46,992 nt of DNA from an uncultured Gammaproteobacteria bacterium (GTDB taxonomy: Bacteria > Pseudomonadota > Gammaproteobacteria > GCA-001735895), in assembly GCA_937894085.1 (NCBI GenBank), contig CALCSG010000216.1, positions 1-46,992 on the forward strand, written 5' to 3'. The notes under the pieces are model-generated. The model had not been told where the DNA came from. It did not search any database and worked only from the letters and a program-made list of their open reading frames with translations. Positions 5,866-46,992 of this stretch are shown here, one piece after another; the first letter of the stretch is position 1; every line of letters starts with the position of its first letter. Position numbers and translations under genes: made by a program.

Positions 5866-7194
5866 ATGATGAATAAACAATCGGTGTTAGTGGTGGATGA
5901 TGAACCCGATATTCGCGAATTACTGGAAATAACACTGATGCGGATGGGCCTGAATGTCGCATGCGCCGAAGATTACACCAGCGCCACAAGGTTACTGCAA
6001 ACTCAATCATTTGATTTTTGCTTAACTGATATGAAATTACCGGATGGTGATGGTATTTCGCTGGTTGAATTTATCCAGCAACACAAACCCGATATGCCGG
6101 TTGCTGTGATCACCGCGCATGGCAACATGGAACTGGCCATTAAAGCGATGAAAGCTGGAGCCTATGATTTTGTCTCAAAACCCGTTTCATTAGATAAATT
6201 ACGCAGCCTGATAGAAAATGGTATACAAACCTCAAGCACTCCAGCTATCCATGACCCCCAATCCCGTTACCAGATTATCGGGCAGTCAAAACAGATTATA
6301 GAATTAAGAAATACCATTCAAAAATTTGCCCGCAACCAGGCACCTGTTTTTATTGACGGTCAATCAGGCACCGGAAAAGAACTGGTGGCACGCCAGATTC
6401 ATGCCCAGGGAGCCAGGTCAAAAGCACCTTTTATAGCTGTCAACTGTGGCGCTATACCCGGAGAATTAATGGAAAGTGAGTTTTTCGGTCATATAAAAGG
6501 CAGCTTTACCGGGGCTATACAGGATAACCCCGGATTATTCCGCGCAGCTCAGGGCGGCACACTGTTTCTGGATGAGATTGCCGACCTGCCCCTGGCCATG
6601 CAGGTTAAACTATTACGAGTTATACAGGAGAAAAGTATTCGTCCAGTGGGTGCACATCATGAAGAGAGCATTGATGTTCGCATTATTAGCGCTTCCCATA
6701 AAAACCTGTCTGAACTAGTTACAACAGGACAGTTCAGACAGGATCTGTATTACCGTATTAACGTTATTGGAATATCTGTTCCTGCACTCCATGAACGCAG
6801 CGAAGATATAGAATTACTCGCTGAATATGTTTTACAGAAAATTTCCAGGGAAAATAATGCCAGTTATTCTCTGCACACATCCGCACTCTCCGCGCTTAAA
6901 ACTTATCACTTCCCCGGCAATGTCAGAGAACTGGAAAACATCCTGGAAAGGTCATGCGCGTTAACTGACAACTCCTGCATTCAGGAAGAGGACCTACATT
7001 TACCCGAACAGCAAAATGCAGTCACAAATGGTGTCAGCCTGTTAGACAGAACAACAGAACTGGAAACAGAAGAACTGGAAAAAGCGTTAACCCGTAACAG
7101 ATGGAATCAATCCGCCGCCGCCAGGCAGTTAGGAATTACACTCCGACAACTGAGGTATCGCTGTGAAAAGCTGGGTTTGACAAAAAAAATGTAG
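5866..7194 (+). CDS. pilR: Sigma-54-dependent response regulator PilR
   Basis: 442 residues with the NtrC-like three-domain plan: receiver domain with acidic pocket DDE (11-13) and phospho-acceptor Asp55; AAA+ domain with Walker A GQSGTGK (165-171) and the sigma-54 contact loop GSFTGA (212-217; the commonest form is GAFTGA); and a C-terminal Fis-type helix-turn-helix (NQSAAARQLGITLRQLRYR). It should activate the sigma-54 promoter found upstream of pilA about 2.5 kb downstream. It is separated from pilS by 20 bp. Accessory genes follow instead of pilA. Confidence 0.94.
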   Translation: MMNKQSVLVVDDEPDIRELLEITLMRMGLNVACAEDYTSATRLLQTQSFDFCLTDMKLPDGDGISLVEFIQQHKPDMPVAVITAHGNMELAIKAMKAGAYDFVSKPVSLDKLRSLIENGIQTSSTPAIHDPQSRYQIIGQSKQIIELRNTIQKFARNQAPVFIDGQSGTGKELVARQIHAQGARSKAPFIAVNCGAIPGELMESEFFGHIKGSFTGAIQDNPGLFRAAQGGTLFLDEIADLPLAMQVKLLRVIQEKSIRPVGAHHEESIDVRIISASHKNLSELVTTGQFRQDLYYRINVIGISVPALHERSEDIELLAEYVLQKISRENNASYSLHTSALSALKTYHFPGNVRELENILERSCALTDNSCIQEEDLHLPEQQNAVTNGVSLLDRTTELETEELEKALTRNRWNQSAAARQLGITLRQLRYRCEKLGLTKKM

Positions 7195-7231
7195 CCCATA
7201 AACTGACAGAGACAATCAGGAGAATCCTTCA

Positions 7232-7822
7232 ATGCCATCATTACAGAAAAAAAGATTTTTGAATGAAAGTGAATACTTAGAAGGAGAGCTAATTAGTGAG
7301 TTTAAACATGAATTGATTGATGGTGAAACATATGCGATGGCTGGAGCCAGTGCAAATCATGAACGAATATCAATGAATATTTCTAGTGAGTTTAGAATAC
7401 ATTTAAAGAACTCAAGCAGCGAGCCCTTCGGCTCCGATATGAAAGTAAAAATCGCATCTAATTTTTTTTACCCCGATGTAATTGTCGATTGTGAATTTAA
7501 TGAGGAGACCCCTTACTTTACGACCACACCAAAACTCATCGTCGAAGTGCTGTCAAAATCCACCCGTCGTACCGATGAAACCATCAAGCGTAATGCTTAC
7601 CTTAATACCCCCAGCTTGCAGGAATATGTATTACTTGAGCAGGATATAGTTGACGTGGAAGTTATCAGGAGATCAGAAGGCTGGCAGTCACGACATTACT
7701 TCATGGGAGATGAAGTAACTTTTGAATCAATCGGCCTAACCCTGACAGTAGAAGAAATCTACCATCGAGTCAAAAATGAAGATGTTATTGAGTTTCTCAA
7801 TCAGAAAACAGATATTCAATGA
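7232..7822 (+). CDS. Uma2-family (DUF820) putative nuclease
   Basis: 196 residues matching the Uma2/DUF820 family, which has a restriction-endonuclease-like PD-(D/E)XK fold. Visible signatures are FKHELIDGETYAMAGAS near the N-terminus, the core YPDVIVDC then PKLIVEVLSKSTRRTDE, and KRNAYLNTPSLQEYVLLEQ. A good ribosome site (AGGAG, 8-nt spacing) precedes the start. The biological role of the family is poorly known; members are common in cyanobacteria and patchy elsewhere, and are often regarded as mobile. It sits in the accessory stretch that separates pilR from pilA. Confidence 0.85.
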   Translation: MPSLQKKRFLNESEYLEGELISEFKHELIDGETYAMAGASANHERISMNISSEFRIHLKNSSSEPFGSDMKVKIASNFFYPDVIVDCEFNEETPYFTTTPKLIVEVLSKSTRRTDETIKRNAYLNTPSLQEYVLLEQDIVDVEVIRRSEGWQSRHYFMGDEVTFESIGLTLTVEEIYHRVKNEDVIEFLNQKTDIQ

Positions 7823-7842
7823 GTATTCAAGAGGTATGTTAC

Positions 7843-7938
7843 AGGGGTCGGAGTCAGTTTTAATTCCAGTTTACTCGTTTTTCAATATCAGAATGTGCCT
7901 CAAACTTACTACTATCGAACTAACTGACTCCGACCCCT
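7843..7938. repeat. Short inverted-repeat element with GGGGTCGGAGTC ends
   Basis: A 96-bp element with perfect 17-bp terminal inverted repeats (AGGGGTCGGAGTCAGTT and its complement at 7922-7938). It has no coding capacity and no obvious target duplication. GGTCGGAGTC-type ends resemble repeats mobilised by REP-associated tyrosine (RAYT/Y1) transposases, which is inference only. A weaker relative lies at 33411-33505. Confidence 0.85.
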
Positions 7939-8010
7939 TCGTTCTTTCTGTGTAGTTCCGTGGCTAACTTAGTGCCTGAATATTTCCTGTAAACATTCAC
8001 ATAATTTAAT

Positions 8011-8292
8011 CTAAGTCTTTTTTTCTATGACACCCAGTTTTTTTATCAGTCTGGACTTGTCGATCGCTCGCGTTTGATCCAGCAATATCAACCCGTCCTT
8101 TCCTTTAAAGTTACAAGCTATCCTGAACGGAAACTCAAAGCCTTTAGTGGTCATAGGAGAAACCAGTACCGTAGATAACGGTCCCATCTCATCAGGAGAA
8201 ATTATCACACAAGGTCTCGTTTTATTAATCTCTCTAGCTTTAGTCGGGTTACGCCCTACAAGCCAGACTTGAAAACGGTTTATGTTTACCAT
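8011..8292 (-). CDS. MazF/PemK-like mRNA interferase toxin, C-terminally shortened
   Basis: 93 residues with the MazF core: VWLVGRNPTKAREINKTRPCVIIS, then STVLVSPMTTKGFEFPFRI and DGLILLDQTRAIDKSRLIKKLG. Family members usually cleave mRNA and are about 105-115 residues long. Here the frame stops just after an A7 run, and in the +1 frame the DNA reads DLD-stop-IM-stop-MF, resembling a lost C-terminal helix. The antitoxin region upstream is broken (see 8286-8540). The core is intact, but the toxin may well be inactive, which would allow loss of the antitoxin. Confidence 0.75.
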   Translation of the reverse strand: MVNINRFQVWLVGRNPTKAREINKTRPCVIISPDEMGPLSTVLVSPMTTKGFEFPFRIACNFKGKDGLILLDQTRAIDKSRLIKKLGVIEKKT

Positions 8293-8540
8293 TTTAAATC
8301 ATCAGAAATAAGATCCGCATCAAGTCATTCATGATCAATGCCATCTCCTGAACCGCTATTTTTTAAAGTAGCTTCAATTGATTCCTTCCAGCCATGCCTG
8401 GGAGCTTTAATTGCTGACACTAAGAGCCCTTTCATTAACAACCGTCAACGCTAACTCCTGACCCCCCAGGCATGCCTGTTCAATAAATGGTTCGGGCTGG
8501 GGGGCTGGCAATCAAGGAACCCACAACTTTCTTGACAAGC
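8286..8540 (-). pseudogene. Decayed MazE/AbrB-type antitoxin
   Basis: Reading the minus strand from about 8540, fragments of an AbrB-type antitoxin appear in shifting frames: LVKK-GSL (usually LVKWGNSL), then EPFIEQACLGGQELALTVVN, then a frame change near 8425, then VSAIKAPRHGWKESIEATL and, after one in-frame TGA near 8325 (probably an old Trp codon), LDADLISDDLKW ending at a TAA that overlaps the toxin ATG. At least two frame changes and one stop are needed to read it through, so it is a pseudogene. Position and overlap with the toxin are exactly those of a MazE antitoxin. Confidence 0.72.
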
Positions 8541-8559
8541 GTTAACCTACACATATTAT
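8532..8559 (+). promoter_or_regulatory. Sigma-70 promoter of vapBC
   Basis: TTGACA at 8532-8537 and TATTAT at 8554-8559 are separated by 16 bp, a near-consensus sigma-70 promoter. It lies about 30 bp before the antitoxin start. Confidence 0.7.
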
Positions 8560-8570
8560 ATATGTATAGG
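8546..8570. promoter_or_regulatory. Palindromic operator of vapBC
   Basis: A 25-bp imperfect palindrome (outer arms CCTA / TAGG, inner arms ACATAT / ATATGT) covers the -10 element and reaches the ribosome site. This is where a ribbon-helix-helix VapB would be expected to bind for autorepression. The match is visual; binding is inferred. Confidence 0.6.
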
Positions 8571-8587
8571 AGGCCAGAGAAACAGAG

Positions 8588-8857
8588 ATGATGATGCAAA
8601 GATCACAGGTATTTTTACGCGATGACCAAAAAAACTCATTACGTACTATTTCCGCCAGGACTGGGCTGAAACAAAGCGACTTGATTCGTCGAGGCGTTGA
8701 CCTGATTATTGAGAAAGAACAACAGCAGGTTAAAAACTGGAAAAAAGCACTGATTCAAGCTCGAGGTATATGGAAAGACAGAGATGATCCAGGCTTTTCC
8801 CAGGCAGAAATTAGACGCGACCTGAAAAAACGGCACGAAACGTTATTCTCAGAATAA
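8588..8857 (+). CDS. vapB: VapB-type ribbon-helix-helix antitoxin
   Basis: 89 residues. The N-terminal part (MQRSQVFLRDDQKNSLRTIS, then TGLKQSDLIRRGVDLIIEKE) is a ribbon-helix-helix DNA-binding domain: a short beta strand with an alternating pattern, then two helices. The charged C-terminal tail would wrap the toxin. Three ATG codons in a row (8588, 8591, 8594) make the exact start uncertain; AGGAGG at 8568-8573 lies 14 bases before the first. Stop and next start overlap (TAATG), the usual coupling in toxin-antitoxin operons. Confidence 0.85.
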   Translation: MMMQRSQVFLRDDQKNSLRTISARTGLKQSDLIRRGVDLIIEKEQQQVKNWKKALIQARGIWKDRDDPGFSQAEIRRDLKKRHETLFSE

Positions 8858-9222
8858 TGCTGTTAGATACCTGTATTATTATAGACTACCTGCGTCAAAA
8901 ACCTGCAGCCGTTACCTATCTTGAGGGGCTGAATATAGTACCTGGCATTACCACGGCAACAGTTGCAGAATTATTTGCCGGAGTAAAAGGCAATAAAGAA
9001 AGGGAGATAATAGAAACTTTAGTAAGCTCTTTTGAAGTCTATGATCTCGATACGGGTATTGCAAAAGAGGCAGGTCTCATTTTACAAAAATACAAACCCT
9101 CCCATGGGCTAGACTTGATAGACTCTATAATAGCCGCAACGGCTTTGACTCACTCATTAGAACTAGCAACCCTGAACCTAAAGCATTTCCCAATGTTCCC
9201 TGGACTGAAACCACCCTACTAA
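8857..9222 (+). CDS. vapC: VapC-type PIN-domain ribonuclease toxin
   Basis: 121 residues forming a complete PIN domain. The acidic metal-binding residues of the family are in place: Asp4 in MLLDTCIIIDYL, Glu38 in TVAELFAG, and Asp86/Asp89 in GLDLIDSIIAATA, with the late TLNLKHF segment. VapC toxins cleave tRNA or rRNA; the target here is unknown. Overlaps the antitoxin stop by one base. In contrast to the neighbouring MazF-like module, both genes of this pair are intact. Confidence 0.88.
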   Translation: MLLDTCIIIDYLRQKPAAVTYLEGLNIVPGITTATVAELFAGVKGNKEREIIETLVSSFEVYDLDTGIAKEAGLILQKYKPSHGLDLIDSIIAATALTHSLELATLNLKHFPMFPGLKPPY

Positions 9223-36687: not shown

Positions 36688-37614
36688 ATGGCAAAACACA
36701 AATCAACGCTGTTTCGTGCTACCGATTATCTGCACCCGAAATACTGGTTAATGTGGCTCACTTTTGGATTATTAAGATTTATTACTCTGTTCCCCTACTC
36801 TGTTCACCTGAGCGTCGGACGCATTTTAGGTCGAATAATTCATCGGATAGCTGGCAGGAGAGAGCACATTGTTGATACCAATCTGCAACTTTGTTTCCCG
36901 CGAAAAACATCTGCAGAGCGTAATCAAATTAAAAATAGTTCGTATGAAAATCTGGGAATTTCATTACTTGAGCTGGCCATGTGCTGGTGGTGGAAGCCGC
37001 AGCGGCTAAAACCACTGGTCGAAGTACGCGGCCTGCAACATGTTGAAAAATGCCTGCAAAATAAGCAGGCCGTTATTCTACTTAGCGGACATTTTACTTC
37101 TCTCGAACTGGGCGGACGCCTGCTGGCTCTTTTATTGCCTTTTCAGGCGATGTATCGCACCCAGAAAAACCCGCTTTTTGACAGTCTTTTATTTACCAAG
37201 CGCAGTGGCTACCTGGTAGATGTTATTTCGCGCAAAAATACACGTCGACTGATCAAAGGCATTAGAAACCTGATCCCCACATGGTACGCACCCGATCAGA
37301 ATTTTGCACGTGAACGTAATGTCTTCGCGCCTTTTTTTGGTGTGCCGACCGCCACCATTACTGCCAGCTCCCGTCTGGCTGAATCAGGAAATGCGGTCAT
37401 GTTACCGTATTATCCCGAACGAAAATCCGATGGCAGTGGTTATATTTTATGGATTGAACCACCGCTAGAAAATTTCCCCAGTGGCGACGACCTCACCGAT
37501 GCGACTGCCATCAACTTATCAATTGAAAAGTTTGTACTGAAAAACCCGGATCAATACATGTGGGTGCATCAACGTTTTAAAACCAGGCCACCAGGTGAAC
37601 CCAAAATTTACTGA
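36688..37614 (+). CDS. lpxL: Lipid A acyltransferase LpxL/HtrB family
   Basis: 308 residues with an N-terminal membrane segment and the catalytic HX4E motif in LSGHFTSLELGG, then AMYRTQKNPLFD and APDQNF (family motif). It transfers a secondary acyl chain to Kdo-lipid A precursors. The stop overlaps the waaA start (TGATG), so lpxL and waaA are coupled. LpxL versus LpxM type cannot be separated with certainty, but the length and the waaA linkage favour LpxL. Confidence 0.92.
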   Translation: MAKHKSTLFRATDYLHPKYWLMWLTFGLLRFITLFPYSVHLSVGRILGRIIHRIAGRREHIVDTNLQLCFPRKTSAERNQIKNSSYENLGISLLELAMCWWWKPQRLKPLVEVRGLQHVEKCLQNKQAVILLSGHFTSLELGGRLLALLLPFQAMYRTQKNPLFDSLLFTKRSGYLVDVISRKNTRRLIKGIRNLIPTWYAPDQNFARERNVFAPFFGVPTATITASSRLAESGNAVMLPYYPERKSDGSGYILWIEPPLENFPSGDDLTDATAINLSIEKFVLKNPDQYMWVHQRFKTRPPGEPKIY

Positions 37615-38840
37615 TGCCTGTATCCAGACCAGCATTTAGTTATCGCCTGCTCTCCTTTACACTTTTACCAATATGGTTTTTTCACGCTGCCTGGCAGGCC
37701 TTAAAAAACCATCAGCTTGAATATTTATGGCAACGCTCAGGTTTCTTCCCGGACAAGGAATGTAAACAGCAGCTGTGGATACATGCTTCATCAGTTGGCG
37801 AAATTGAATTAATTAAACCTCTGGTACTGTCTTTACACAAAGATCAGGCCATTTTAGTCACTACTTTTACTGTCACCGGTTACCAGCATGCCTTACGCAT
37901 TCTGCCAGATAACGTAACAGTAAGAGCCTTGCCCATAGACCTGATGCCTATCAGTCAACATTTTATTCGGCGATACAATTTCAAACTGGCGTTAATAGCA
38001 GAAACTGAACTGTGGCCAGAGACACTGTATCAAACTGCAAAAAATGGGATTCCTCTAGTTCAAATTAATGCCAGACTTTCCAGTAAATCTCTAAACACTT
38101 CAAACTGGAGCAATAAAATATTACGGCAAACTTTAGGTTATTTTGATCAATACCTTACCCGTACTGAACAGGACGTGACTAATTTAGTATCCATGGGAGT
38201 ACCGTTAAATAAAATAACCGTCGCTGGGAATTTAAAATACGCTCACATAGCGTCAAACAGTCATGACAAGTTGATAAAACAGCCCTATATTTTATTTGCT
38301 TCTACCCATCATCCAGAAGAAAATTTATTTGCAGGTCTCATCAATACTTTACAGCTTACCCAATTAATCGTCATCGCACCTCGTCACCCGCAACGAGCAA
38401 AAGATATCCTGAAAAGCCTGCAACCACTCGGCCTGACGATAAAACAACGCAGCCTGGGACAGGCCATCACAGATGATACTCAAATCTACCTGGCCGATAC
38501 TCTGGGGGAATTAAAAAACTTCATGGCATTTGCCGATCTGGTCATTATGGGTGGATCATTCGAAGAAACAGGTGGACATAATGTGCTGGAACCTGTGCGG
38601 CTGGGTAAAGCCGTTATCACCGGCCCAAGCGATCAAAACATTCGGCAGGACATTGCTTTATTACTAAAACATGACGCCATTGTTCAGGTTAAGGGCATCG
38701 AGCAGTTAGCAATAACAATAAGTTATATATTGCAGTATCCGGCAGCACTGGAAAAACTCTCCAATAATGCGAAAAAGGTCATGCAGGCACAAAATCACAT
38801 TCTTCAAAACTATTTAGACGTAATAAAAGGCTACCTGTAA
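37614..38840 (+). CDS. waaA: 3-deoxy-D-manno-octulosonic acid (Kdo) transferase
   Basis: 408 residues with an N-terminal anchor and the glycosyltransferase family 30 signatures WIHASSVGEIE, TTFTVTGYQHA and EETGGHNVLEPVRLGKAVITGP. It adds Kdo to lipid IVA. Converges on kdkA with a 10-bp overlap of the two ends, which places the Kdo kinase directly beside the Kdo transferase. Confidence 0.95.
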   Translation: MPVSRPAFSYRLLSFTLLPIWFFHAAWQALKNHQLEYLWQRSGFFPDKECKQQLWIHASSVGEIELIKPLVLSLHKDQAILVTTFTVTGYQHALRILPDNVTVRALPIDLMPISQHFIRRYNFKLALIAETELWPETLYQTAKNGIPLVQINARLSSKSLNTSNWSNKILRQTLGYFDQYLTRTEQDVTNLVSMGVPLNKITVAGNLKYAHIASNSHDKLIKQPYILFASTHHPEENLFAGLINTLQLTQLIVIAPRHPQRAKDILKSLQPLGLTIKQRSLGQAITDDTQIYLADTLGELKNFMAFADLVIMGGSFEETGGHNVLEPVRLGKAVITGPSDQNIRQDIALLLKHDAIVQVKGIEQLAITISYILQYPAALEKLSNNAKKVMQAQNHILQNYLDVIKGYL

Positions 38841-39538
38841 CCTTCAATCAATTGCTGCCATTGAGTCAGGCTAAAATTGAAAGCTAAACCCTGCTTATGC
38901 CTTGAGGTCTGTATTTTTTTTAATGAACGTAACAGGCGTTGAATATTATTATCAGCAGCTGTACCCAACGGCGATACGATTTTAGCTTTATCAAAATCAA
39001 TAATACTGAACTGCCCGTTGTCATCGATAAGAATATTATTGGCGTTTAAATCAGCATGAAAGATATCTGCCTGATGTAGACGTTTAATTACCCCTCCGAG
39101 TTCAAACCACTGTTGATCAGCTAGTGTACTGTCAAATAACCAGCCTGCCAACGTACCTGAATTGTTGATAAAACGGCTAATGATGGATGCACGATAAAAC
39201 AGGCCGTTTTTTTGCACACAAAATGCCACCACTTCCGGCACAGGCAAAAGCTTTTGGAATGCATGCTGGGTAACCTGCTGTTCCTGATAAGGCCGACTAT
39301 TTTTCAGCCCTGTCCATAAATACTGATCACGTAAAAAACGGGCTATTAATCCACCTCGTAAATAATGCCGTAGAACATAAAACTGACGCTGAATAGTTAT
39401 TTTCTGGCTGGCTCCCCGGCCACCGGTTAGTGCTTCGGAATTATTTTTGGTATGCCAGTAAGACAACTCAAAATCCCTCTGAGTGAACTGGTAGTCAATG
39501 GTTTCCAGCTGTTTAATAATGAGTTGATTAATTGGCAT
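38831..39538 (-). CDS. kdkA: 3-deoxy-D-manno-octulosonic acid kinase
   Basis: 235 residues of the protein-kinase-like KdkA family: TGGRGASQKI near residue 38, the catalytic loop HADLNANNILI at 161 and the metal site DFDKAK at 181. KdkA phosphorylates Kdo at O-4 in species with a single Kdo residue, suggesting a core of the Haemophilus type. Divergent from gmhA with a 91-bp spacer. Confidence 0.93.
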   Translation of the reverse strand: MPINQLIIKQLETIDYQFTQRDFELSYWHTKNNSEALTGGRGASQKITIQRQFYVLRHYLRGGLIARFLRDQYLWTGLKNSRPYQEQQVTQHAFQKLLPVPEVVAFCVQKNGLFYRASIISRFINNSGTLAGWLFDSTLADQQWFELGGVIKRLHQADIFHADLNANNILIDDNGQFSIIDFDKAKIVSPLGTAADNNIQRLLRSLKKIQTSRHKQGLAFNFSLTQWQQLIEGYR

Positions 39539-39629: not shown

Positions 39630-40223
39630 GTGACACAAATCAATCACAGCAATTTTATCAGGCGGACTATCCAGCAATCCATCGATTTAAAAACCAGCCT
39701 GTTACAGCACGACGATTTAATCGAAAACATCAATAAAGTAAGTAACCGCTGCCTTGAAATGTTCCACAATGGTAATCGTCTGTTAATAGCCGGAAATGGT
39801 GGAAGCGCAGCTGACGCACAACATATCGCCGCTGAATTTGTCTGCCGGTTTAATTTTGAGCGCCCCGGCCTGCCTGCTATGGCGCTGGCAACTAATTATT
39901 CTGTTATCACCGCTGCAGGTAATGATTATAGTTTTGACGATGTATTCTCCCGCGAAATTGAAGCCAATGGTAAAAGCGGCGATATTTTTATTGGCATTTC
40001 AACTTCCGGAAATTCCACCAATATACTAAAAGCCATGCAGGCCAGTCAGCAGGCAGGTATCTATACAGTCGGTCTATCAGGTAGTGGTGGAGCTATTCAA
40101 AACGAAGCAGATATTTGCCTGAATGTGCCTTCTGACTGTACCCCGCGTATCCAGGAATGCCATATCCTGATCGGCCATATACTTTGTGAAATTGTTGAAA
40201 CCAATTTATTTCCAAGACTGTAA
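39630..40223 (+). CDS. gmhA: Phosphoheptose isomerase
   Basis: 197 residues, a SIS domain with AGNGGSAADAQHIAAEF, GNDYSFDDVFSR, ISTSGNSTNILKA and a C-terminal RIQECHILIGHILCE carrying the metal-ligand Glu/His pair. It converts sedoheptulose-7-phosphate to heptose-7-phosphate for the LPS core. A GTG start at 39630 is preceded by AGGA at 6 bases. The close relative DiaA is excluded on the metal-site motif and on the LPS context. Confidence 0.88.
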   Translation: MTQINHSNFIRRTIQQSIDLKTSLLQHDDLIENINKVSNRCLEMFHNGNRLLIAGNGGSAADAQHIAAEFVCRFNFERPGLPAMALATNYSVITAAGNDYSFDDVFSREIEANGKSGDIFIGISTSGNSTNILKAMQASQQAGIYTVGLSGSGGAIQNEADICLNVPSDCTPRIQECHILIGHILCEIVETNLFPRL

Positions 40224-40231
40224 CGCTTTCC

Positions 40232-41293
40232 ATGAATGCCCTTACTTTTGATCAGCCACCAGAATCTTTGTGTATATTACGTTTGTCAGCCATAGGGGAT
40301 GTAACTCATATGTTGCCGGTTATAGCGACCCTGCAACAGCAATGGCCAGATACAAAAATAAGCTGGATTATCGGCACCATCGAATACCAGCTGGTTAAAT
40401 CTTTACCCGGCATTGAGTTTATTATTTTTAATAAGAATAACGGTTTTGCAGAATATAAAAAATTACGCAAAACGCTTTCCGGACGTCGTTTCGATGTTTT
40501 ATTAATGATGCAGGTTGCGCTGCGTGCTAATTTAATCAGCCTGTTGATTAAAGCGAAACTAAAAATTGGCTATGATAAAAAGCGGGCCAGGGATTTTCAC
40601 GGATGGTTTTGTAACCAGCAAATTGAAGGCCCGTATCGTGTGCATGTACTTGATACCTTCTTTCAGTTTATAGAAAAGCTGGGCATTACCCGACGAAACA
40701 TGAACTGGTTGTTAAAGCCTGAAGAAGCCAGTCAGCAATTTGCTCATCAACATATTAATAATCAACCGACAGTCATTATTAACCCCTGCAGCAGTGCTCG
40801 CAAAAATAACTGGCGAAACTGGCCAATACAATATTATGCGGAAGTGATAGACAGCCTGATGCAACAGGATATCAGGGTTATACTAACCGGCGGCCCGGAC
40901 TCTAATGAAATAAATTTCTCCAGGGATATAATTCAACTTTGCAGCAAACAACCAGTCGACCTCGTTGGCAAAACCAGCCTGGCACAATTACTGGCTCTAC
41001 TTGAGCAGGCCCGTTGCCTGATTGCTCCGGATACCGGCCCCGCTCATATGGGTACAGTTGCAGGTATTCCAGTGATAGGACTTTATGCCAGTAGTAATCC
41101 AGAGCGTTCCGGACCCTATAATAGTTTACAGATTACGGTGAATGCCTACCCTCAGGCGTTGCAGAAATTCAATCATAAAACGGTCGATGAAGCCCGTTGG
41201 GGACAACGCGTTCGAGATCCTGAAGTTATGAAAATGATTTCAGTTGATGACGTCATCGGCCATCTGAATTCATGCCTTGGAAATCAATCATAA
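40232..41293 (+). CDS. Heptosyltransferase (glycosyltransferase family 9)
   Basis: 353 residues. The N-terminal ILRLSAIGDVTHMLPV motif, the central NPCSSARKNNWRNWP and the C-terminal APDTGPAHMGTVAGIPVIGLYA are those of LPS heptosyltransferases. It is likely WaaC-like or WaaF-like, adding heptose to Kdo or to heptose. It begins 8 bp after gmhA, so the pathway enzyme and user are co-transcribed. Confidence 0.92.
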   Translation: MNALTFDQPPESLCILRLSAIGDVTHMLPVIATLQQQWPDTKISWIIGTIEYQLVKSLPGIEFIIFNKNNGFAEYKKLRKTLSGRRFDVLLMMQVALRANLISLLIKAKLKIGYDKKRARDFHGWFCNQQIEGPYRVHVLDTFFQFIEKLGITRRNMNWLLKPEEASQQFAHQHINNQPTVIINPCSSARKNNWRNWPIQYYAEVIDSLMQQDIRVILTGGPDSNEINFSRDIIQLCSKQPVDLVGKTSLAQLLALLEQARCLIAPDTGPAHMGTVAGIPVIGLYASSNPERSGPYNSLQITVNAYPQALQKFNHKTVDEARWGQRVRDPEVMKMISVDDVIGHLNSCLGNQS

Positions 41294-41295
41294 CT

Positions 41296-43131
41296 ATGCT
41301 GCTTAATCATCGAAGAGAACTGTTTAACTCCATTTTATGGAGTGTCTTTTTTAACGGTGTTGTTGCCAGTGTCATATCTGTTCAGGGTATTTTGACAACG
41401 GCTCTAGCCGATTCCTGGTTTACTCTGCTTTACCTGGTACTGCAACAAGTCGGGCATTTTCAACTGTTATCTTTGCTGGTCGGTTTGCCACTACTTTTCC
41501 TCAGCCTGCTTTTACCCGTTAAAAAATTAATAACTGTATTCACAGTACTTTTCTTTAGTGCATTTATTTTACTGGTGTTTATCGATTATGAAGTATTTAA
41601 ACTGTATCGATTTCATCTTAATGGAATGGTGTGGAATATGCTTACGGGTGGTGCCATGGATGAAATATTTGTATTTGATATTTCAAACATAATAACCTTT
41701 ATTTTCTTTATCGCCAGCATCATTCTGCTACAACTTGGCATGCAATACTTCATCCGCCGACGTACAGAAAAAACAAATTCTGTCAATGGCTGGTATGTTT
41801 TTCTAGTGGTTTTCCTGTTGCAGTTTGGCGGTCAGGCTATTTATGCCTGGTCCGATGCATGGTATCGAGTGGAAATCATGTCTCAGACGCGTTTTATACC
41901 TTTTCCACAGGGTATGACTATTAAACGTTTTCTACGTGACAAAGGCTGGGCACCGGACATCCCTCAGGAGCTAAAACTTAAGGCGTCTGCCAGTGGCCGG
42001 TTTAACTATCCAGTACAGGCTCTTAAATGTGCCAGCCCCGAACAGAAACCGAATATCCTGTTTATCATCTCTGATAGCCTGCGCTATGACATGTTACAGC
42101 CTGAGATTATGCCAGTATGGTCGAAACTGGCAGCAGATAGTCAGGTATTCAATTTTCATTTGAGTACGGGTAATGCAACGCGTTTTGGCGTATATGGATT
42201 ATTTAGTGGACTTTTTGCTCACTACTGGTTTGACTCTCTCAACACTCAGTCCAGTTCGGTCTTAATCGAAGAACTTAAAAATCAACAGTATGAGTTTGGC
42301 TTCTTTGCCAATGCCCGGTTGACCAGCCCGGAATTCGATAAAGCCATTTTCTCTGCCGTAAAGGATAAAATACCGGAAAAAACTAGCGGAAAAAATGTAT
42401 TAGAACGCGAATATGAAATCACCCGGCAGGCCAAAACCTTCTTTCAGAAAAACACTAATAATCCTTTTTTTGGTTTAGTCTTTTTTGATGCGCCGCATGC
42501 CTACGTGAATCCCCCACAGGATGATAAATTTAAACCCGCCCTACAATCCCTGAATTACCTAAATATTGATAATGACTCTGACCCGGTTCCATTTCTAAAT
42601 CGTTATAAAAATGCCGTACATTTTACCGATCGCTTAACCGGTGAACTGATTCAAATACTGGAACAGCAGGGTCTTATGGATAACACCATCATCATACTGA
42701 CCGGCGATCATGGACAGGAGGCAAATGAAACTCATACTAATAGCTGGGGGCATAACAGTAATTTTTCAAAATACCAGATACAGGTACCGCTTGTTATTTA
42801 CTGGCCTGGAAAAACACCAAAAACATATTCACAACTTACTTCCCATGTAGACGTAGTTCCCACACTTCTGCAGGAAGTTTTTTCCTGTTCTAATGATGTA
42901 AAAGAGTACAGTAACGGGCAATCCTTATTCGATCAGACTGAAAGAGATTTTGTACTGGTAAATAACTGGAACAATAAAGCAATAGTGAATAAAAGCAGTT
43001 TGAAAATATACCCCGATATAGGACCTGCTGAATACAGAACCTATGAAAATTACCAGATTCAGTCAAAAGAAAAGTCTAATAGCATTCCCACCTCAAAAGT
43101 CATTGAATCTATTTCGAGATTTTATAAATAA
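41296..43131 (+). CDS. YejM/PbgA-like inner membrane sulfatase-fold protein
   Basis: About 611 residues: five N-terminal membrane helices (to about residue 205; DUF3413-type) then a periplasmic alkaline-phosphatase-fold domain with ISDSLRYDML, STGNATRFGVYGLFSG, ILTGDHGQEANE and QVPLVIYWPG. The layout matches E. coli YejM (PbgA/LapC), which senses LPS and restrains LpxC degradation. Some catalytic-site residues look more complete than in YejM, so enzymatic activity cannot be excluded. The ATG at 41296 is chosen; one at 41272 would overlap the heptosyltransferase. It ends directly against the next, convergent gene. Confidence 0.85.
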   Translation: MLLNHRRELFNSILWSVFFNGVVASVISVQGILTTALADSWFTLLYLVLQQVGHFQLLSLLVGLPLLFLSLLLPVKKLITVFTVLFFSAFILLVFIDYEVFKLYRFHLNGMVWNMLTGGAMDEIFVFDISNIITFIFFIASIILLQLGMQYFIRRRTEKTNSVNGWYVFLVVFLLQFGGQAIYAWSDAWYRVEIMSQTRFIPFPQGMTIKRFLRDKGWAPDIPQELKLKASASGRFNYPVQALKCASPEQKPNILFIISDSLRYDMLQPEIMPVWSKLAADSQVFNFHLSTGNATRFGVYGLFSGLFAHYWFDSLNTQSSSVLIEELKNQQYEFGFFANARLTSPEFDKAIFSAVKDKIPEKTSGKNVLEREYEITRQAKTFFQKNTNNPFFGLVFFDAPHAYVNPPQDDKFKPALQSLNYLNIDNDSDPVPFLNRYKNAVHFTDRLTGELIQILEQQGLMDNTIIILTGDHGQEANETHTNSWGHNSNFSKYQIQVPLVIYWPGKTPKTYSQLTSHVDVVPTLLQEVFSCSNDVKEYSNGQSLFDQTERDFVLVNNWNNKAIVNKSSLKIYPDIGPAEYRTYENYQIQSKEKSNSIPTSKVIESISRFYK

Positions 43132-45144
43132 TCAATTCTGCTGATTCTTATAGTCAGCAACAATTAAATATTCTTTCAATAGTTTTCGGTAGAACTCAAG
43201 GTTAATGACCGACATTTGTTTATCACTAACGGGTTCAGATACAGGGTTTGTTAACAATTTTTCTGCATCCGCCCAGGCGTAAAATGTTTTATTTTTACTG
43301 TCGAGCATTCCCTCCTGCAAAATAAATTCACCGCTCGTAGCCCAGCCATAGGCTTCACCATCTTTCTTATCCATGAAAGGCTGTCCAAAATTATAATAGC
43401 TGGCATTTGACAGGCTCAGCTCGAAAATGGTCGGGAACAGGTCATTATGCGAACCGGGTATGTTTCTGGAAACTGCTTTCAATTTATCCATTGACTCCGG
43501 AACATAAATATACGCTGGTACAGAGTAACGCAGGTATTTTTCATTAGTAGCACTATTATCTATAAATGTCCGTTGAGGATGATCTCCTGTAGCCACCACA
43601 ATTACCTTATCCTTAAACTCACCATTTTTTATCCAGCTCATAAATTTTCCAAGCTGATCAGTCTGGTAATGATAGCCAGATAATTGAGAGAGCTTGGTTT
43701 CATCGCTATCATCAAACCCAAACACTGACGGTTTAAAAGAAGGTCTTTGATATGACTTTGGCAACCTGACCGGAGGGTGGTTATTGGTTGTCAATACAGC
43801 CGAAAACAAAGGTCGGCCACTTTGCTCTGACTGTTGCAGAGATTCCTTCAGATAATCAAAAACATATTGATCATAAACTCCCCAGGGGTTATCACTCGCA
43901 TCTACCTTAAAATGATTCTCAATCTGTGAACGACCGGTATATTGATCAAACCCCTGTATTAACCAGAAGTTATTATGGTTTCGCCATGAACTATACCCAC
44001 CACTCAAAAATAACGTTTGATAGCCCTGTTTTTTAAAAGGCAGAACATTGGATAAAGTAAACTGCGTTTTATTAGCAATAGATTGTGACAGTGGCGTAAT
44101 CGGAGAATTCATCAGCAATGACTCTATCGCTGGATTGGTGCCGTAGGTTGTAGCCAGAAACCGCGTAAAAAAATAATCCTCTTCAGCATGTCGAGCAAAT
44201 TCACCTAACACATCATTATCTGCTGATTGTGTCAGAGCAATCTGGCTGGACCAGCCTTCCATAAAAACAAAAATGACATGTGGTTTAATTTTTTCCAGCT
44301 CCACATTTTTTTCAGTCGTTTTAAATGCTGGATGTTGATCATCGTAACCAGCCTTTTCAAGCAACTGCCTGTAATTATCCAGCCGGTTAATTTTCAAAAT
44401 ATCCTGTTTAAATATTGCTTGGCTGTTGACGCCTTTATCGTGGTATGCGTAGTACAGATTAAATGCACTATTCATGACCATCGAATTTAAAAAGGTATTA
44501 TCACTGACAGAAGCATGTTTACGTTGTAATGGGAAAGAGTCCAGCGAGCCCCTGGCCAACACAGCCAATAATAGAAATGACAATAACCAGCTAAAAAGCT
44601 GAATTTTTACTGAACTGACCTTTGCAGGTTTGTATTCAAAGTGATTTACAATTTTTGAATACAGTCGAAGTACTGCAACAGTAGAAATAATAAAACCGGC
44701 AAAAAACAACAGCACCTTGTAATTATCAAAAATAGTGCTGAGGATGGCACTGGTATCATCCTCAAATAAACCAAATATCAATACGTCGATAGGTTTTTGA
44801 AAGTAGAAGATATAGCCGGTATCAACAAATATTAAATAGACAAGCAGTACCAGAAAGACCTTTAGAATCAGCCTCAAATACAATGCAAACCATTTTTTAG
44901 GAGTGAACCATGAAAGTAAAATAACAGGAAACCAGACAAAGGTAATTAAAATAGATGCCAATAGTTTGATATCAAATCTGAACCCCTTTAACAAAAACTC
45001 ATCCAGAAATGTCAAACTCCGACCAATATCCTGCAGGTCCCCAAAGGTAAAAACATTACTGATCCTGGCCAGCATTAACAGCAACATAGTTAGCACTGAA
45101 AATATCAGTATTTCATTCCATTGATTTCTAAATTGGATTTTCAT
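43132..45144 (-). CDS. LTA-synthase-superfamily phosphoglycerol transferase-like protein
   Basis: 670 residues: five membrane helices to about residue 200, then an LtaS/MdoB-type extracytoplasmic domain. Metal and nucleophile positions are in IFVFMEGWSS (Glu296), TTYGTNPAIES (Thr336), TTNNHPPV and ATGDHPQRTF. Gram-negative members transfer phosphoglycerol or phosphoethanolamine to glucans or lipids. It is followed on the same strand by a GDPD-like gene and another family member, suggesting one pathway. Substrate unknown. Confidence 0.88.
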   Translation of the reverse strand: MKIQFRNQWNEILIFSVLTMLLLMLARISNVFTFGDLQDIGRSLTFLDEFLLKGFRFDIKLLASILITFVWFPVILLSWFTPKKWFALYLRLILKVFLVLLVYLIFVDTGYIFYFQKPIDVLIFGLFEDDTSAILSTIFDNYKVLLFFAGFIISTVAVLRLYSKIVNHFEYKPAKVSSVKIQLFSWLLSFLLLAVLARGSLDSFPLQRKHASVSDNTFLNSMVMNSAFNLYYAYHDKGVNSQAIFKQDILKINRLDNYRQLLEKAGYDDQHPAFKTTEKNVELEKIKPHVIFVFMEGWSSQIALTQSADNDVLGEFARHAEEDYFFTRFLATTYGTNPAIESLLMNSPITPLSQSIANKTQFTLSNVLPFKKQGYQTLFLSGGYSSWRNHNNFWLIQGFDQYTGRSQIENHFKVDASDNPWGVYDQYVFDYLKESLQQSEQSGRPLFSAVLTTNNHPPVRLPKSYQRPSFKPSVFGFDDSDETKLSQLSGYHYQTDQLGKFMSWIKNGEFKDKVIVVATGDHPQRTFIDNSATNEKYLRYSVPAYIYVPESMDKLKAVSRNIPGSHNDLFPTIFELSLSNASYYNFGQPFMDKKDGEAYGWATSGEFILQEGMLDSKNKTFYAWADAEKLLTNPVSEPVSDKQMSVINLEFYRKLLKEYLIVADYKNQQN

Positions 45145-45193
45145 TTAATTCAATAATGTGTGTTTGAAATTCAATTGCCGAGAAACTTCAACA

Positions 45194-46030
45194 TTAATTT
45201 TCAGGGTTAACATTACAACTATTTTTATGAAAATAATTAACACTTACGCTATCACCGACTATAAAAGCCCTGACACTTTTCACCGCGAGCATTTCATCTA
45301 TCAATGATTCATCGACTGGCAAATGATAGAGAAAAACCGGAACATTTTTTAATCTAAGACGTGTCTTTGCGCCAAAAACAGGATCATCAAGTGCTCCATA
45401 ATTCATAGCCATTACACTATGATCACCAAAGTAAAAAAACATTTTGTAAACATTTATCATAAACGCCGACAGAAAAGACATACTTTCTGGCACAGGGCTG
45501 GTATCAAAGATGGTATGAAGCCCGGCTTTGCGATATTTGAAAAGATTTTTCGGAGCTTCATTTTCAACGTAAATTCTTTGCGTCAAATTATTTTTTTGCG
45601 AGATATCAAATAATCTTTGAATTGCCTGCTGAGTCTGTTCGTCGTTTAGAAATCTTAACTTTTTATAATCCAGCCAAAAATAATGATCGTCACCAACAGC
45701 TTCAAATAACTCAGCAAGGGTTAAAATTTTTCCATTTTTTAGATTATAGGGATAGTCATGAGAAACAACAAAATCCTTTAATTCAACATCATAGCGGACA
45801 TCGACTTCGACCCCCATAGCGCCCTGCTCAAATGCGGCACGGATGCTTTCGATAGAGTTTTGCTCTTTAAATGTTCGATATATTCCTCGGGCACTCCAGA
45901 CTTTATGACAATCATTATATGAATCTGAAAAATCTTTTTTTCCCAGTTGCCTATCGACATAAAACACCAGTGCAAAATAAATAACGACCAGTAGTAGGAA
46001 AAAATAAAAAAAGAATTTTAAAATTCGCAT
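45194..46030 (-). CDS. Membrane-anchored GDPD-like protein
   Basis: 278 residues: one N-terminal membrane anchor (about 4-24) then a glycerophosphodiester phosphodiesterase-type barrel. Recognisable parts are KEQNSIESIRAAFEQGAMG, the metal pair in VEVDVRYD (Glu75, Asp77) and the second catalytic histidine in VVSHDYPY (His91). The usual first histidine of HRG is Ala here (WSARG, residues 45-49). Family enzymes split glycerophosphodiesters. Lying between two LTA-synthase-like genes, it could trim or recycle glycerophosphate groups (inference). Confidence 0.82.
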   Translation of the reverse strand: MRILKFFFYFFLLLVVIYFALVFYVDRQLGKKDFSDSYNDCHKVWSARGIYRTFKEQNSIESIRAAFEQGAMGVEVDVRYDVELKDFVVSHDYPYNLKNGKILTLAELFEAVGDDHYFWLDYKKLRFLNDEQTQQAIQRLFDISQKNNLTQRIYVENEAPKNLFKYRKAGLHTIFDTSPVPESMSFLSAFMINVYKMFFYFGDHSVMAMNYGALDDPVFGAKTRLRLKNVPVFLYHLPVDESLIDEMLAVKSVRAFIVGDSVSVNYFHKNSCNVNPEN

Positions 46031-46056
46031 AACGTTAAATAGTGTTTAAAAATATT

Positions 46057-46992
46057 CTATTGATAAAGGTATTTCTTTTCTCGATAAGCATACATCGGCC
46101 ATAAAACATGAGCCCTGGCAATTTCAGCTAACCCTTCGTCAAGTTCTTTGACGTGCAGCTTTTTATCCCTGTAACTAAACTGCTTTGCCACCTTTTCAGG
46201 TACATGAATTACAACATCATTACCCTGCATATAAGCATTATTATTACCATATTGCATCAATGCCCTTCCTTCAAAACTTTCAGGTAGTGTTCGCAAATCA
46301 TGACCAATCATCGGGTGAATACTCTTTATCCCCATAAGCCCTAACAGGGTCGGAGCCAGATCTATCTGGCTGGCAACTTTGGTATAGTGTTGAGGGCTAA
46401 CACCCGGTCCGATAATAACACCCGGTATATGAAATTTATTCACCGGCACCAGCTCCGCACCAAAGACTCTTGTATCATGGTCAGCAACTACCAGAAAATA
46501 AGTGTTATTCCAGTACTCCTGTGTTTTTGCCTGCTTAAAAAACTGACCTATTGCATAATCAGCATATTTAACGGCATTATTGGCCGTATGCTTATCAGCA
46601 TCATGTAATTCAATGGTATTATCCGGAAACTCAAATGGTGAATGATTACTGGATGAAAAAGCCAGAATAAATTGTGGCTTATCTGCTGAACGGGTCAATT
46701 CATCATTAACTTTATCCAGCAGATCCTCATCTGACACTCCCCAGGTTCCACGAAACTTTTCATTTTTATAATCATTTTGATCAGTCACCTTATCAAACCC
46801 ATTGGCCAGAAAAAAACCAGCCATATTATCGAAGTGACCTTCACCACCATAGATAAACTGCGTATCATAATTGTGCTGTTTCAAAATACTGGCAATAGTG
46901 ACAAAATTTTGCTGTGCCAGGCCGAGTTTTAATACGCTTCGAGATGGCGATGGTGGAAATCCGGTAATAACTGCTTCGATTCCTCGAGCCGA
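46057..46992 (-). CDS. LTA-synthase-superfamily protein, 5' end outside window
   Basis: Partial: the reading frame is open to the right edge, so only the C-terminal ~311 residues are seen. The first visible block SARGIEAVITGFPPSPSRSV carries the sequence after the catalytic Thr of this family. FIYGGEGHFDNMAGFF, FSSSNHSPFEFP and VVADHDTRVFGAE follow and supply metal-site residues. It is a second, distinct family member in the same run as the GDPD-like gene (27-bp gap). Internal TTG or ATG starts should not be used. Confidence 0.9.
   Translation of the reverse strand, partial: SARGIEAVITGFPPSPSRSVLKLGLAQQNFVTIASILKQHNYDTQFIYGGEGHFDNMAGFFLANGFDKVTDQNDYKNEKFRGTWGVSDEDLLDKVNDELTRSADKPQFILAFSSSNHSPFEFPDNTIELHDADKHTANNAVKYADYAIGQFFKQAKTQEYWNNTYFLVVADHDTRVFGAELVPVNKFHIPGVIIGPGVSPQHYTKVASQIDLAPTLLGLMGIKSIHPMIGHDLRTLPESFEGRALMQYGNNNAYMQGNDVVIHVPEKVAKQFSYRDKKLHVKELDEGLAEIARAHVLWPMYAYREKKYLYQ

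Follow-up and report, generated by a model that had tools for sequence, protein, structure and literature searches.

The LtaS and LtaP proteins of Gram-positive bacteria consist of membrane helices and a catalytic domain of the alkaline-phosphatase fold, with phosphatidylglycerol (PG) as the likely donor. Escherichia coli OpgB/MdoB (phosphoglycerol transferase I), also with PG as probable donor, belongs to the same superfamily, and VP1736 of Vibrio parahaemolyticus is an alkaline-phosphatase-superfamily protein whose structure (PDB 3LXQ) came from structural genomics and was deposited as uncharacterized. Glycerophosphodiester phosphodiesterases (GDPDs) carry the motif HR-EN-ExD-HD, which contains both catalytic histidines (PMC4926365), and phosphoglycerol is present on the O-chains of several Gram-negative bacteria (PMC3210612). 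Here we describe, at the right end of a 46,992-nucleotide contig from an uncultured gammaproteobacterium, a gene for a GDPD-like protein lying between genes for two LtaS/MdoB-superfamily proteins, LTA1 and LTA2; the LTA1-GDPD pair recurs in four phyla, and its GDPD is altered at the first catalytic histidine. The components are of known kinds. The pairing of LTA1 with a GDPD, and the altered GDPD itself, are undescribed in the open-licence literature searched, where searches for VP1736, which no paper there names, and for a lipoteichoic acid (LTA) synthase with a GDPD in Gram-negative bacteria turned up nothing on such a pair.

The window analysed is the entire contig CALCSG010000216.1 (C216), which belongs to an assembly of 6.0 Mb in 567 contigs (GCA_937894085.1). 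Three genes form one run on its minus strand: LTA1 (46057..46992; PF00884, E 1.3e-42), of which the window holds the C-terminal 311 residues of a 643-residue membrane protein truncated at the contig end; the 278-residue GDPD-like protein (45194..46030; PF03009, E 6e-4); and LTA2, a second membrane protein, of 670 residues (43132..45144; PF00884, 7.8e-24). LTA1 is separated from the GDPD gene by 26 bases, and the GDPD gene from LTA2 by 49 bases. The original prediction, a membrane-anchored GDPD-like protein flanked by two LtaS/MdoB-superfamily proteins in one minus-strand run adjoining lipopolysaccharide (LPS) core genes, was confirmed by open reading frames (ORFs) and profiles, and its start at position 43132 and single-strand run were correct.

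A genome-wide search with PF00884 located the missing first 47 profile positions of LTA1 at the end of another contig, C263, which carries the N-terminal remainder of the protein (7166-8166). The ends of the two contigs overlap by five bases (TCGGC) and, joined in frame, yield the 643-residue LTA1. Because the product is in frame and the gene order is uninterrupted in a relative (G032), the join is probably real rather than a chance overlap of five bases. C263 also contains an mtaB-like gene, waaL (Wzy_C), a GT2 gene, a PF04464 gene and hldE; the region upstream of LTA1 is thus hldE/PF04464/GT2/waaL, that is, LPS core genes and not opgGH. The earlier statement that no opgGH is visible therefore still stands when the window is extended rightwards, where no ordinary opgGH-opgB cluster appears. 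The PF04464 protein (C263, 3864-4937), which is CDP-glycerol glycerophosphotransferase-like and also matches Epimerase_2, possibly catalyses a cytoplasmic glycerol-phosphate or sugar step, and its gene is kept beside hldE in all four relatives examined.

Both LTA1 and LTA2 have the PF00884 domain behind N-terminal membrane helices. LTA1 is a member of the VP1736 family, matching 3LXQ with an E-value of 2.2e-163 over the whole soluble domain, with LtaP and LtaS next; LTA2 is more distant, and its best structural match is likewise 3LXQ, followed by LtaP and LtaS. The E/S/H/D/H residues of LTA1 are invariant or near-invariant in the family alignment, and the motif spacing suggests that its nucleophile is Ser333, not Thr. 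In LTA2 the nucleophile and metal residues (E296, T336, H456, D521 and H522) are present. LTA1 thus resembles LtaS and LtaP in its membrane helices, alkaline-phosphatase-fold domain, catalytic residues and likely donor, but differs from them in its host with LPS genes, its LPS-core neighbourhood, its low identity, its predicted Ser333 in place of Thr and its GDPD partner. It shares superfamily and probable donor with OpgB/MdoB, but the partial LTA1 scores 63.3 and 41.7 bits against NCBIfam equivalog cut-offs of 572 and 574, with LTA2 lower still, and the setting differs in that this genome has no MdoG/OpgG.

The GDPD-like protein is modelled as one N-terminal transmembrane helix followed by a triose-phosphate isomerase (TIM) barrel of GDPD type (AlphaFold confidence score pLDDT 93.8), and the barrel would be periplasmic. 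The closest structures found by Foldseek are GDPDs in the PDB (E 2e-9, TM-score about 0.57–0.65). Its PF03009 score of 20.4 bits lies under the Pfam gathering threshold of 23.6, whereas a relative paired with EptA (L116) passes at 32.4; on the modelled fold, the label 'GDPD-like' is right. Position 47, the first catalytic histidine of the HRG motif, is Ala here and A, S or T in all 16 aligned family members, and the Glu of 'EN' is replaced by Q, R or A in most of them; ExD and the second His of the canonical motif are kept. E75, D77, D121, K123 and that second histidine, H91, are invariant in the 16, which span four phyla and identities as low as 40%, with D121 in place of the usual Glu as the third metal ligand. 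H236 on strand beta-7 is also invariant in 16/16, as are C41 and C272, which would suit a periplasmic disulfide. What this protein has in common with GlpQ, other GDPDs and LpgD is the TIM barrel, the metal ligands, the Arg of 'HRG' and the second His; what sets it apart is the replaced first His, the invariant beta-7 His, an Asp instead of Glu as third metal ligand, a W45/W119/E156 and C41/C272 signature of its own, and its pairing, as a membrane-anchored protein, with a transferase.

In eight ordinary GDPDs, position 47 is His and position 236 is T, E or D. Between them and the present family stand two relatives: L116 (3920-6299, in Vibrionaceae genome G506) is a GDPD with a normal HRG whose gene overlaps an EptA-like gene, and L114 (2674-5202, in the small Campylobacterota genome G618) is an EptA-like transferase fused to a C-terminal GDPD-like domain; in genome G664 the region matching this fusion consists of two separate ORFs. 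Both have the W45, W119-D121-K123 and E156 signature and a partner of the same superfamily, yet they retain H47, have T in place of H236, and are joined to an EptA-like protein, not LTA1. The GDPDs that have lost the histidine form one clade (support 95/97), and we therefore regard the loss as one event, not a repeated correlation. The altered GDPD would be a dedicated partner of the transferase, retooled for the product of that enzyme. The LTA1s paired with a GDPD are not a single clade in the LTA1 tree, which was built in quick mode and includes two rows (L097 and L125) that look like wrong-frame ORF picks.

The order hldE-LTA1-GDPD-LTA2, followed by the convergent PbgA-like-GT9-gmhA genes, is the same in four related metagenome-assembled genomes (MAGs), with about 51–71% protein identity for LTA1, the GDPD and LTA2, and mostly short gaps or overlaps between genes; in G032 the three genes and both flanks are unbroken on one contig. 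Among 41 genomes of the order, orthologs of the GDPD and of LTA2 are confined to the identical five genomes, each with LTA1, and LTA1 orthologs occur in those five plus two others. If kinship is ignored, the chance of the GDPD set falling inside the LTA1 set is p = 2.8e-5, and that of its equalling the LTA2 set 1.3e-6. In a genus otherwise without the pair, one genome (G024, contig C36, 6142-7578) contains a decayed LTA1 followed by pieces of the GDPD in the same order, a possible loss as a unit.

With the GDPD alignment as query, a scan of 84,980 species genomes gave 14 loci, an under-count since the scan requires short exact motifs. LTA1 was found in 16 of the 17 genomes that have this GDPD, across four phyla, and is adjacent to it or nearly so in most. 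The two genes are neighbours in Alteromonas facilis, Aliivibrio, two Helicobacteraceae, Acidobacteriota, where they overlap by 4 bases, and Planctomycetota, where they converge. A Campylobacterales MAG with LTA1 split across two contig ends probably has them side by side as well. The single exception is L017, where LTA1 was not found and the contig starts within the GDPD gene. For comparison, 17 of 369 genomes sampled from this class have strong LTA1 matches (E < 1e-140). A search of 369 class genomes with the GDPD alignment gave, apart from the genus's own two genomes, no more than weak matches to ordinary GDPDs, which were used as the canonical outgroup in the GDPD comparison. Outside the five genomes of the order, full-length relatives of LTA2 were found only in L017, Aliivibrio and the Campylobacterales MAG. 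In the close relatives that have the three genes, these lie together and not separately, but beyond the order LTA2 is only sometimes present: the widespread core is LTA1 plus the GDPD, and LTA2 is optional. LTA1 and this GDPD very probably work together, and because the pair recurs in unrelated bacteria, this transferase-plus-diesterase pair is probably a real envelope module.

To the left of LTA2 and convergent with it lies a gene for a PbgA/YejM-like protein with DUF3413 and a sulfatase domain (41272..43131, plus strand), a third member of the LtaS/MdoB superfamily at this locus that the original prediction did not count; it scores, at full length, 225.7 bits against the NCBIfam NF038282 (YejM) cut-off of 825. 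The LPS core neighbours are a GT9 heptosyltransferase (40232..41293, plus), a gmhA-like sedoheptulose-7-phosphate isomerase (39630..40223, plus), the 3-deoxy-D-manno-octulosonic acid (Kdo) kinase KdkA (38831..39538, minus) and the Kdo transferase WaaA (37614..38840, plus). Next to them is a conserved neighbour, a probable LpxL-like lipid A acyltransferase (36688..37614, plus), named by its sequence and place. Elsewhere in the window we noted, from reading the sequence, small MazF-type and VapBC-type toxin-antitoxin-like genes upstream of a pilin gene (8011-9222) and an isolated Uma2/DUF820-like ORF inside a type IV pilus gene region (7232-7822). PADLOC found no defence systems, and promoter and terminator scans gave matches no more numerous than in shuffled sequences.

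We propose that the locus encodes a module that transfers phosphoglycerol in the periplasm and is tied to LPS-core synthesis, and put the probability of the full mechanism at about one half. LTA1 would take glycerol-phosphate from PG, of which diacylglycerol remains, and pass it through a covalent Ser/Thr intermediate on its alkaline-phosphatase fold to a sugar in the LPS core or in a related glycan of the cell surface. LTA2 would probably act likewise on another site or residue. The membrane-anchored GDPD-like protein would act on the product or the donor side of LTA1. Its most likely role is that of a phosphodiesterase that trims glycerophosphoryl groups derived from PG or recycles them; catalysis would depend on the metal and H91, perhaps with H236 standing in for the lost histidine of beta-1. 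PG as donor and the LPS core as acceptor are suggested by gene neighbourhood: DgkA is encoded next to or within two genes of LTA1 at five loci in other genomes, as expected if diacylglycerol is released, and at three others LTA1 comes after a gene that reads as heptosyltransferase-like. LPS-core-type genes also adjoin the LTA1-GDPD pair in Aliivibrio and Campylobacterota. Several observations weigh against this proposal. The pair does not adjoin LPS genes in Acidobacteriota, Planctomycetota or Alteromonas; LTA1 is present but unlinked to the GDPD in Psychromonas, in the genome of locus L023 and in two Campylobacterota genomes (G852 and G755); and most genomes that bear LTA1 are without the GDPD. 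Furthermore, phosphoglycerol and phosphoethanolamine transfer within this superfamily cannot be told apart by sequence alone, and a GDPD without its first histidine could be a pseudoenzyme.

Hydrolysis by the GDPD-like protein, the removal of glycerophosphate in the original prediction, is not assured, because the canonical first catalytic histidine is absent in every family member aligned; that prediction is thus supported in part. As a pseudoenzyme the protein would hydrolyse nothing. It would instead bind glycerophosphate in the periplasm, or serve as a scaffold, and present substrate to LTA1 or regulate that enzyme. The frequent loss of the Glu of 'EN' and the tight pairing with one transferase would fit such a role, which we consider unlikely though still to be taken seriously, since pseudoenzymes usually lose the very residues (E75, D77, D121, K123 and the more important H91) that are invariant here. 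An experimental parallel points the same way: in Staphylococcus aureus LpgD, H51A, the equivalent of a change at position 47, retains significant activity, and the key residue is H93, the equivalent of H91 (PMC10404611). The first His of LpgD activates the 2-hydroxyl and speeds formation of the cyclic phosphate but is not absolutely essential, and loss of the first His therefore need not abolish activity (PMC10404611).

The head group of PG is sn-glycerol-1-phosphoryl. A speculative reading, less likely than not, is that the GDPD-like protein is an active diesterase whose histidine for activating the C2 hydroxyl has moved from beta-1 (position 47) to the opposite wall of the barrel on beta-7 (H236). 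The combination of a lost beta-1 His and a new beta-7 His is confined to the clade that is paired with LTA1, and a GDPD for the sn-1 enantiomer might look like this. Such an enzyme, a mirror image of GlpQ, might handle the sn-glycerol-1-phosphoryl groups that LTA1 and other PG-dependent transferases would add and that are beyond the reach of GlpQ. In Bacillus subtilis GlpQ, which cannot cut intact LTA, His-43 lies in contact with the C2 hydroxyl of sn-glycerol-3-phosphate; that of the sn-1 enantiomer would point to the opposite wall, Tyr-259 included (PMC7086022). Tyr-259 is the Tyr of the beta-7 'HPYTV' motif (the chain numbering of 5t91 is offset by 25) and aligns with Y235 beside H236, although the register at H236 is uncertain owing to a one-residue insertion there in the family.

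A less probable alternative is that LTA1 and LTA2 transfer phosphoethanolamine, or another head group, to LPS, with the GDPD acting on ethanolamine-phosphate or general lipid by-products. EptA belongs to the same superfamily, and EptA-like transferases overlap, or are fused with, distant relatives of the GDPD; however, by profile LTA1 resembles LtaP/LtaS and the NCBIfam phosphoglycerol transferases rather than EptA, and a separate EptA-type protein is encoded elsewhere in the genome (contig C336). It is very improbable that LTA1 is of OpgB/MdoB type and decorates osmoregulated periplasmic glucans from a synthase other than OpgGH. Weak profile matches to MdoB family models speak for it. Against it, the LPS-core neighbourhood is conserved in the order, and MdoG (PF04349) was found in none of the 16 genomes tested, this one included, while the E. 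coli control was positive; we accordingly rejected the glucan reading. Least credible of all is an incidental gathering of unrelated envelope genes beside LPS genes, for which the four unlinked genomes might speak: co-occurrence holds even where the genes are unlinked, and linkage recurs in four phyla amid different surroundings.

The proposed phosphoglycerol-transfer module thus consists of a conserved transferase-plus-GDPD pair, often by LPS-core genes, and it gives a testable role and a partner to the VP1736 family, whose structure has been solved and whose function is unassigned in the open-licence papers searched. Should the GDPD turn out to act specifically on sn-glycerol-1-phosphate, it would form the counterpart of GlpQ and a usable tool to distinguish the two enantiomeric phosphoglycerol polymers.

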